From Vulcanisaeta souniana JCM 11219 (GTDB lineage: Archaea; Thermoproteota; Thermoprotei; Thermoproteales; Thermocladiaceae), in contig NZ_AP026830.1 of the NCBI RefSeq assembly GCF_026000775.1, forward strand, positions 1,325,056 through 1,389,055: a stretch of DNA of 64,000 bases. The letters run 5' to 3'. The position numbers and the translations under genes were made by a program. The notes beneath the pieces were generated by a model. That model saw only the letters and a program-made list of their open reading frames with translations. It ran no database searches and had not been told where the DNA came from. Below, piece after piece: positions 32,597 through 35,058 of this stretch. Numbering within the stretch: the first letter of the stretch is position 1; each line of letters opens with the position of its first letter.

Positions 32597-32878
32597 TTAT
32601 TTATGTTTAGCTTCATTGATTATACCCAACTCCCTGGCGCAATCATTGCAATACCTACTAAGGCCAACCCTAACACTATCCCTCCTACAAACCAACCTAC
32701 CACACCTGGTGCAATGCCCAATGGCAAGCCTTGAGCGGCAGACCTGGCATAGGGTTGCTGAGCAGGCCTTGCATACGTTCATTGAGTGGTCAAAGTCATC
32801 ATTACACACGTACCTACCGCAAACACGGCACCTAATCGTTGCCGGTTTCTCCTCACAAATTTCACAAAACCTAACCAA
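32597..32878 (-). CDS. Small multi-zinc-finger protein
   Basis: 93 residues with at least twelve Cys arranged as repeated CxxC units: CEIC, CRVC, CKAC, CQVC, CTRC, then CNDC at the end, with interspersed His and Asp. It resembles tandem B-box or RING-like knuckles and could bind three or four zinc ions. The start is TTG at 32878, about five bases after the expected transcription start from a TATA-like TATTTAAAAC on the minus strand. Function unknown; protein or RNA binding is likely. It may head an operon with 32205 and endA. Confidence 0.75.
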   Translation of the reverse strand: MVRFCEICEEKPATIRCRVCGRYVCNDDFDHSMNVCKACSATLCQVCRSRLAIGHCTRCGRLVCRRDSVRVGLSRYCNDCARELGIINEAKHK

Positions 32879-32915: not shown

Positions 32916-33809
32916 TTAATCGAGTGATGCCAGGTACTGGAGTATGTCGGTCCTTGTTATTATTCCAACGGGCTTAGCGCCACTAACCACTATTAATCTG
33001 CCTATCTTGTTGACGGTCATGAGTTTCATGGCGTCATATAGATCGGCTTCCTTATCGATGGTGGGTACGTCCCTCCTCATGTAATCCCCAACCTTAGCGT
33101 TTAGGTTGCCCTCATAGTAAGCCCTAGCTATTTCGCTCGTGGTTATTAAACCAGCTATCCTATCATCATCATCTACCACCGGTAATGCCCTAATCTTCTT
33201 CTCGGCGAAAACCCTGGCTGCATCCCTTAATGGCGAGCCATGTCCTATGGTTGTCACGTTCTTGCTCATTAGCGTCTCGACCTTGACCTTGGGTATTGCT
33301 ATTAACTTGTTTATGGAAATTACGAGTTCCCTGAGTCCCTCGTTCTTCTCCGTAATAATGCCTTCAATAATCACCCTACTGTTTGCCGTGGGTCCAATCT
33401 TGACATTATCACCAATCCTAATGTTCTTCAGGTCACCAATGACCCTAACAAGGGCCCTATTGCTGAATGGGTTAATGACATCGAGTAGTTCGATACCCGT
33501 CACGTAGAGGTTCGTGGGTAATTTATTAATTGTTATTGGGGCTATGTCCAGGGCGAAGACCGCGTTCGTGGGCATCTTAATGTACTCAAGGGCCTTCTGG
33601 GTAGGTACGTAACCACCGTAGGGCCCCGTCTTAGACTCAATGTACCCCATGGCCCTTAGGGCTACCATGGAGTTCCTGACGGTTCCCTCATTAATGCCGA
33701 GTTTCTCGGCAATATCTCTCGACTTAATGGGTCTCTTGGTCATCATGTAAAGCTCAACGAGTGCGTTGAGTATTGACGTGTATGTGGATGGTAATTTCTC
33801 AACCATCAT
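32916..33809 (-). CDS. HTH-CBS domain transcriptional regulator
   Basis: 297 residues. An N-terminal winged helix (SRDIAEKLGINEGTVRNSMVALRAMGYIE, about residues 23-60) has a glycine-rich wing. It is followed by a middle segment, then two CBS domains (about 178-297: LMSKNVTTIGHG, DDDDRIAGLITTSEIA, then YMRRDVPTID, GIITRTDILQ). CBS pairs usually sense adenine nucleotides or SAM, so this is probably an energy- or metabolite-responsive regulator. A 7-base inverted repeat lies 54 bases upstream. Confidence 0.85.
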   Translation of the reverse strand: MMVEKLPSTYTSILNALVELYMMTKRPIKSRDIAEKLGINEGTVRNSMVALRAMGYIESKTGPYGGYVPTQKALEYIKMPTNAVFALDIAPITINKLPTNLYVTGIELLDVINPFSNRALVRVIGDLKNIRIGDNVKIGPTANSRVIIEGIITEKNEGLRELVISINKLIAIPKVKVETLMSKNVTTIGHGSPLRDAARVFAEKKIRALPVVDDDDRIAGLITTSEIARAYYEGNLNAKVGDYMRRDVPTIDKEADLYDAMKLMTVNKIGRLIVVSGAKPVGIITRTDILQYLASLD

Positions 33810-33909: not shown

Positions 33910-35058
33910 TTATTTATAATTCTGTGACGCGCGGAAAACCCTAACCTTTTTACCACCATAAACCTCGTAACTAAAAGTCACTAAACCACGCCTGGCAAGT
34001 GAATTCAACGCCTTATAAACACCCTGGAGAGTCGCAGTACCACTAAGTCTCTCCCACACTTGGTAAGCCGTCAATGGGCTTGAACCCTCCAAAACCCTTA
34101 GTATTGCCCCCTGTAGCCTCGTTAAGCCACCCAGTCCTCTACCAACCCTGTACTCCTTCAGCCCTGTGCCCGTTATGACGACCACGTAGTCCCTACCCAG
34201 GGAAACCGCGGCTGCGTAAGCCATGGCGGACACGGGCTTAACGTAAAGGCCATTTCTGGCCAATTCAATCATTGACTTAACGGTTTCCTCATCCCCAACA
34301 TCAACAACCTCAGCTTCGGCCCCTTCAATCAACCAATTAGCCACATCACTGAGAAGACCATTCCTGTGCTTAACAAGGACCAGCCTTGGTAACTCATCAA
34401 TGAATCCCCAATCACGTAACTCCCTAAATCCCTCATAAATAGCCAGGGCCAGGTAGCCCCTCTCCATGGGCAATACAACGCCCTCTACCTTCCCGACCTG
34501 CTCATACAACTCGTATGCAATAGTCTTGATCCCATCCAAAAACAGGGGCTCCCCATAACGCGCACTCAGGTCTTGACCTCCCTCCCTAAACTCGATGTTT
34601 ACACTCTTCATTGTAGATAACCTAAGTAATTCGGGATAGGCACCAGCCGTGTCTGGATTTACGTAAACCCTAACCCTAACACCGACGGTGCTTGCGTATG
34701 TGGCTATCGATAGTGCGAAGTCCTCTTCGAAGGAGATCCTGATCTCGTTACTAGTTACGTTACTGATGAGCACCGATGAGCCTCTGTCCATGAAGGAGCC
34801 CGTGGGATTCCTGGACTCATCCTTAATTAACACGCCATTGATCCTCCTGATCCTCGTGAAGCCCTCCCCAAGGGTTACAGCCCTATTGCCGTAGTTCAAC
34901 GCCGATGCGTACCTTAGGATACTTGGTTTCTCCCTATCGATCCTAAGTGCGTCCCTTGGTTCGGTAATTAATGGAAAACCACACCTGGGGCAAAACAGGT
35001 AATCCCCGGCGCCCGTGTATCCACACCTTAGGCACCTCAACCTTATGTTTACTGGCAC
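33910..35058 (-). CDS. Threonine-synthase-like pseudoenzyme with C-terminal winged helix
   Basis: 382 residues. The N-terminal zinc ribbon (CLRC and CPRC) and the fold-type II PLP domain follow threonine synthase. However, the PLP-binding Lys of NPTGSFKDRG is Met here (M90, codon ATG at 34791-34789), and the SSGN phosphate loop that should follow is absent. From about residue 305 a winged helix follows (TRLQGAILRVLE, TAYQVWERL, LQGVYKALNSLARRGLV). It should bind no PLP and may bind DNA. GTG 35058 lies 28 bases after a TATA box. It is divergent from herA and upstream of the HTH-CBS regulator. Confidence 0.82.
   Translation of the reverse strand: MPVNIRLRCLRCGYTGAGDYLFCPRCGFPLITEPRDALRIDREKPSILRYASALNYGNRAVTLGEGFTRIRRINGVLIKDESRNPTGSFMDRGSSVLISNVTSNEIRISFEEDFALSIATYASTVGVRVRVYVNPDTAGAYPELLRLSTMKSVNIEFREGGQDLSARYGEPLFLDGIKTIAYELYEQVGKVEGVVLPMERGYLALAIYEGFRELRDWGFIDELPRLVLVKHRNGLLSDVANWLIEGAEAEVVDVGDEETVKSMIELARNGLYVKPVSAMAYAAAVSLGRDYVVVITGTGLKEYRVGRGLGGLTRLQGAILRVLEGSSPLTAYQVWERLSGTATLQGVYKALNSLARRGLVTFSYEVYGGKKVRVFRASQNYK

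Follow-up and report, generated by a model that had tools for sequence, protein, structure and literature searches.

What does a threonine-synthase-like protein do when it lacks the catalytic lysine and ends in a winged helix? This question is raised by a gene of Vulcanisaeta souniana located at 33910..35058 on the (-) strand of the window, which is the whole 64,000-nucleotide stretch of DNA analysed here; the protein features described below are on the same strand. The gene has a GTG start and encodes a 382-amino-acid-residue protein, called the regulator here after its proposed role, with which orthologues could be aligned. Elsewhere the same V. souniana genome encodes two paralogues that bear the Lys, along with SSGN and STGN loops, so the cell has other candidates for threonine synthase besides this gene.

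The N-terminal part of the protein (34981..35034) has a zinc ribbon of the CxxC..CxxC pattern. Its four cysteines (C9, C12, C23 and C26) are invariant in the orthologue alignment, and the Pfam zinc-ribbon matches were weak. It is followed by a threonine-synthase or fold-type II PLP domain (about residues 44-300, 34159..34929), presumed to be the ligand-sensing domain, which matched Pfam PALP with E=2.4e-27. The AlphaFold model of the protein had a mean pLDDT of 89.6, and the best PDB matches of the predicted fold, found with Foldseek, were threonine synthases (E ~1e-16). Met90 (codon 34789..34791) lies in the stretch NPTGSF-M-DRG, as against NPTGSF-K-DRG, and aligns, in threonine synthases of known structure, with the catalytic Lys; the Schiff-base lysine of a catalytic threonine synthase is thus missing. 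The S/T-G-N loop is missing too, its SSGN/STGN stretch being replaced by FEEDF within the altered loop SFEEDFALS (residues 109-117, 34708..34734), where Asp113 stands at the former Asn. The Gly-rich phosphate loop is altered to P-M-E-R-G. An earlier note on this DNA, made from the letters of the window, had described the open reading frame, the Met and the missing SSGN loop correctly. It had also called that loop phosphate-binding, which does not hold: in fold-type II enzymes the S/T-G-N loop mainly binds the substrate carboxylate and PLP O3', and the PLP phosphate is held by a later Gly-rich loop.

The C-terminal winged helix that the same note had read from the sequence (residues 311-377, 33928..34128) is present in the AlphaFold model as three helices (H314-323, H331-337 and H344-356) and a two-stranded wing (E360-367 and E370-377). 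When scanned alone, it stayed under the Pfam cut-offs (TrmB 0.027) and gave no direct Pfam PadR match. In a profile-profile comparison it matched the winged helix of the sister group of the family (98%, E=1.9e-13). We call the regulator's orthologues group I and the sister group group II. The group II winged helix matches PadR structures and was over the Pfam PadR cut-off in six scanned members. Judged by these profiles, the winged helix of group I is homologous to that of group II, and the C-terminal domain of the regulator appears, indirectly through the group II domain, to be homologous to PadR.

Relatives were retrieved by an alignment-based scan of genome contigs, a scan with a single-protein query having given no matches. 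The 19 orthologues, from Vulcanisaeta, Thermoproteus, Caldivirga, Thermocladium and one further family, have Met (12), Tyr (4), Ala (2) or Ser (1) at the Lys position; none of them has an S/T-G-N loop and all have kept the winged helix. Further group I members, with mostly Ala at this position, were found in Desulfurococcales, Sulfolobales and Acidilobaceae MAGs. Group II proteins are mostly 440-500 aa long and come from other Thermoproteota and Nitrososphaerota; they keep an x-G-N or similar loop and have R, M, L, T or A at the Lys position. In a sample of 139 threonine-synthase-like proteins, the Lys was present in none of the 84 with a winged helix, and the winged helix in none of the 38 with the Lys; these counts are not frequencies, since part of the set was collected with a Lys-excluding pattern, a bias of which the profile and protein searches are free. 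Lysine absence and winged helix are therefore conserved together, as the earlier note had asked of its homologues, while Met itself varies. Close homologues keeping Lys and the SSGN loop, which would have spoken for a recent change, were not seen, and a recent mutation at Met90 is ruled out by the family-wide loss.

In a tree of the threonine-synthase core, with the winged helix omitted, a branch (SH-aLRT 94, by a quick method) separates all winged-helix proteins from all Lys-bearing and haloarchaeal ones. This tree, whose root is not fixed, fits a single loss of Lys and a single gain of the winged helix.

Some smaller observations concern the same set of proteins. The haloarchaeal threonine-synthase-like proteins, from eleven loci, have Ala or Tyr in place of Lys (NPTGSIADR) and no winged helix. 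Lys-less forms without a winged helix were also seen in planctomycetes (three loci) and Thermogemmatispora (two loci). The regulator gene is split by frameshifts in three draft Vulcanisaeta genomes of JCM strains, and the other target genes are broken in the same three genomes, which suggests sequencing error.

Part of group II bears an enzyme name. The NCBIfam equivalog NF004170 (PRK05638), "threonine synthase", was over its cut-off in 12 genomes, all with group II proteins. In all 12 members Arg takes the place of the Schiff-base Lys, and the PadR-type winged helix is present. Judging from these residues, the name probably labels regulators and would be a systematic mis-annotation of them as enzymes. 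The V. souniana regulator scored 146 bits against a cut-off of 421 and does not belong to PRK05638. Both have a Lys-less threonine-synthase domain and a PadR-type winged helix, but PRK05638 proteins retain the x-G-N loop and more of the glycine-rich loop, which the regulator has lost.

Apart from the Lys, many residues of the pocket region are invariant in the group I alignment. The TGxG stretch near the C-terminal end of fold-type II enzymes has a Thr or Ser that faces the PLP pyridine nitrogen, and the corresponding residue is Thr or Ser in every aligned group I member. Gly201 is invariant despite the altered Gly-rich phosphate loop, and Asp is usual in group I where the O3'-binding Asn was. 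This conservation suits a retained ligand site rather than decay, and is no proof of PLP; with both the phosphate loop and the O3' ligand altered, PLP binding is not assured.

Outside Thermoproteales, neighbour clustering placed PdxS and/or PdxT next to the regulator gene at 14 loci of group I. The two dominate the group I neighbourhoods, and Pfam and NCBIfam matches confirmed the identity of representatives. In most of these 14 loci pdxS is preceded by a palindrome, TTRAACGTTYAA, which thus recurs upstream of pdxS in pdxST-regulator loci of distant orders. The pdxS upstream region was readable in 12 adjacent-pdxS loci (L070 and L083, where the pdxS start is unclear or cut, were left out of the count), and the palindrome is exact in nine of these, with one mismatch in L078 and two in L069 and L072. 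The form found in Thermoproteus and in the adjacent-pdxS loci is TTGAACGTTCAA. In V. souniana, pdxS lies about 41 kb from the regulator (G000:C1:1316931-1317944) and has a perfect palindrome, TTAAACGTTTAA, directly upstream. The exact palindrome occurs three times in this 2.43 Mb genome, compared with 0.15 expected from composition, and each copy is located 38-47 bp before a start codon: that of pdxS, that of an APC-type permease and that of a class-V aminotransferase. In many cases a TATA-like stretch starts a few bases after the palindrome, so a bound protein could either prevent the pre-initiation complex from assembling or help it to do so.

The earlier note had named two neighbours, the downstream HTH-CBS gene and herA, as possible targets. 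The window contains no palindrome with 0-1 mismatch and four sites with two mismatches (2.1 expected), and the palindrome stands upstream of B6 genes elsewhere in the genome, which does not favour either neighbour. No such palindrome was found upstream of the regulator gene itself in Vulcanisaeta, and autoregulation through it is ruled out there.

The palindrome also goes with the regulator across genomes. The 14-mer ATTGAACGTTCAAT was found in 11 of 398 genomes of the phylum; nine of the 11 have a group I regulator, and most of these have the site within 3 kb of it. Among testable genomes, a palindrome upstream of pdxS was seen in 10/10 that have the regulator and in 1/19 that lack it (Fisher p ~5e-7, ignoring kinship, the genomes compared being related and not phylogenetically independent). 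Of the 19 genomes in which the permease has the site (0-1 mismatch), 18 have the regulator, and the one permease relative without the site comes from a Pyrobaculum-like genome without the regulator. No palindrome was found anywhere in the Pyrobaculum-like genomes (g5) or in g3, both without regulator. Five genomes (G004, G015, G018, G034 and G055) have the regulator and no detected pdxS; here the site precedes a transporter, as expected if these organisms import B6, and in G055 this transporter gene encodes an ECF S component. G004 and G017, which have the regulator and no exact site, have the site before the permease in its usual position, with one mismatch. G033 has the regulator, no pdxS match and no exact palindrome. 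The palindrome is present and the regulator was not detected in the incomplete Vulcanisaeta MAGs G001, G006 and G007 (84, 87 and 54% complete).

Like pdxS, the other two V. souniana targets may be connected with vitamin B6. The APC-type permease belongs to an amino-acid permease family and is a candidate B6 importer. The best solved relative of the aminotransferase is 2z9u (E=1.3e-52), named aspartate aminotransferase as a PDB molecule but known as the Mesorhizobium loti pyridoxamine-pyruvate aminotransferase. Among NCBIfam models the aminotransferase best matches pyridoxamine--pyruvate transaminase, with 262 bits against a cut-off of 600. By these matches the protein is a relative of pyridoxamine-pyruvate aminotransferase, not a proven member; its gene also occurs without the regulator and without the site. 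In group II the next gene often encodes an ECF transporter S component, accompanied in some loci by an ABC ATPase and another membrane gene. Both regulator groups are linked to S components of Pfam PF07155, which are candidate archaeal vitamin B6 transporters; that of G055 (L271) showed 46% identity over 102 aa in a comparison with group II neighbours such as L180. In 26 group II upstream regions no shared operator of the palindrome kind was seen.

Taken together, these data make it likely that the gene encodes a one-component vitamin B6 transcription factor, in which a Lys-less threonine-synthase-type domain is combined with a PadR-type winged helix and acts at the palindrome. The earlier suggestion that an enzyme has become a ligand-sensing transcription factor is strongly supported, judging from the joint occurrence of lysine loss and winged helix and from the linked operator in many genomes. 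We infer that the protein itself binds the palindrome: its winged helix would contact TTRAACGTTYAA just upstream of the TATA-like element and control, in V. souniana, pdxS (PLP synthase), the APC-type permease and the class-V aminotransferase. The disabled PLP-enzyme domain would read PLP or another B6 vitamer, presumably bound without a covalent link in the former cofactor pocket, and plentiful PLP would lower expression. A PLP-dependent repressor is slightly favoured over an apo-activator like bacterial PdxR.

The ligand proposed earlier was phosphohomoserine, threonine or a related amino acid, in which case the protein would be a sensor of the threonine pathway controlling amino-acid genes. 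Its descent from threonine synthase and the amino-acid permease family of the target permease would agree with this, as would the Lys-bearing threonine synthase that adjoins a few group II genes (four loci) and two group I genes. However, the V. souniana palindrome is on pdxS and not on threonine genes, the S/T-G-N loop that binds the substrate is gone, and pdxS/pdxT dominate the group I neighbourhoods. The palindrome upstream of vitamin B6 genes does not support such a ligand, and we consider this sensor unlikely.

The palindrome might instead be bound by another B6 regulator, the threonine-synthase-like protein being its cofactor-sensing partner or having another job. The HTH-CBS protein may be named as an example: in Vulcanisaeta its gene (32916-33809) comes after that of the regulator, and two Acidilobaceae MAGs (L080 and L081) have a relative in divergent orientation next to regulator-pdxS-pdxT. 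The presence of palindromes in G001 and G006, where the regulator was not detected, points the same way. Yet the regulator is the gene common to the palindrome-bearing loci of the Thermoproteus, Caldivirga, Thermocladium and Desulfurococcales types, whereas the HTH-CBS cluster occurs in only ten loci, from Vulcanisaeta and the two Acidilobaceae MAGs. Another binder is therefore improbable, and the HTH-CBS protein is a possible functional partner of the regulator. That the protein is a PLP enzyme, active or altered, working through another residue and carrying the winged helix as a mere appendage, is very hard to credit, in spite of the many invariant pocket-region residues and the database name of group II, since M, A, Y, S, R, L and T all occur at the Lys position, group I has lost the substrate loop, the same genome has Lys-bearing synthases, and neither the conserved operator nor the pdxST linkage is expected of an enzyme.

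Like bacterial PdxR of the MocR family, the proposed vitamin B6 regulator has a PLP-enzyme-like domain fused to a winged helix. PdxR regulons in bacteria comprise pdxST, B6 transport and PLP-dependent aminotransferases, and MocR is stated to be absent from Archaea (PMC5320631); the gene classes of the candidate archaeal regulon, as predicted from its sites, are the same. MocR proteins have an N-terminal GntR-type winged helix and a fold-type I aminotransferase domain. The archaeal regulator has neither of these, but a fold-type II threonine-synthase domain without Schiff-base Lys and a C-terminal PadR-type winged helix; by this comparison we infer that it may work like PdxR, yet it is not a MocR protein and has another fold. 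With threonine synthase (ThrC) it shares the fold, the zinc ribbon as in archaeal paralogues and much of the pocket, and differs in the loss of the catalytic Lys and the S/T-G-N loop, two shortened segments and the added winged helix. RbkR is listed as both regulator and enzyme, and the ThiN domain is found in both repressors and enzymes (PMC8305020). Like RbkR (B2) and the ThiN-domain regulators (B1), the present protein would be an archaeal one-component vitamin regulator with a biosynthetic-enzyme-type domain and an HTH, though with another fold and another vitamin, as compared by description only. No regulator of such architecture was found described in the open-access literature, to which the search was confined.

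On balance, and with less assurance than for the gene itself, we favour a widespread archaeal family of PLP-sensing transcription factors, group II included, built on a dead fold-type II PLP domain. It would be a counterpart of PdxR whose regulon exposes new B6 transporters (the APC permease and the ECF S component), and vitamin B6 regulators would then have arisen from PLP-enzyme domains a second time, independently and on another fold. For most species the B6 transporters are said to be unknown (PMC9997740). The family supplies a concrete candidate regulator, operator and regulon for Archaea, together with candidate B6 importers.

Two further observations concern the neighbours of the regulator gene. 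In Vulcanisaeta a small protein (32597-32878) is kept beside the regulator and gave matches to the B-box zinc finger (PF00643, 4e-07), which is known chiefly from eukaryotes. In five Thermoproteus loci, two cytochrome bd oxidase-like genes follow the regulator on the same strand.
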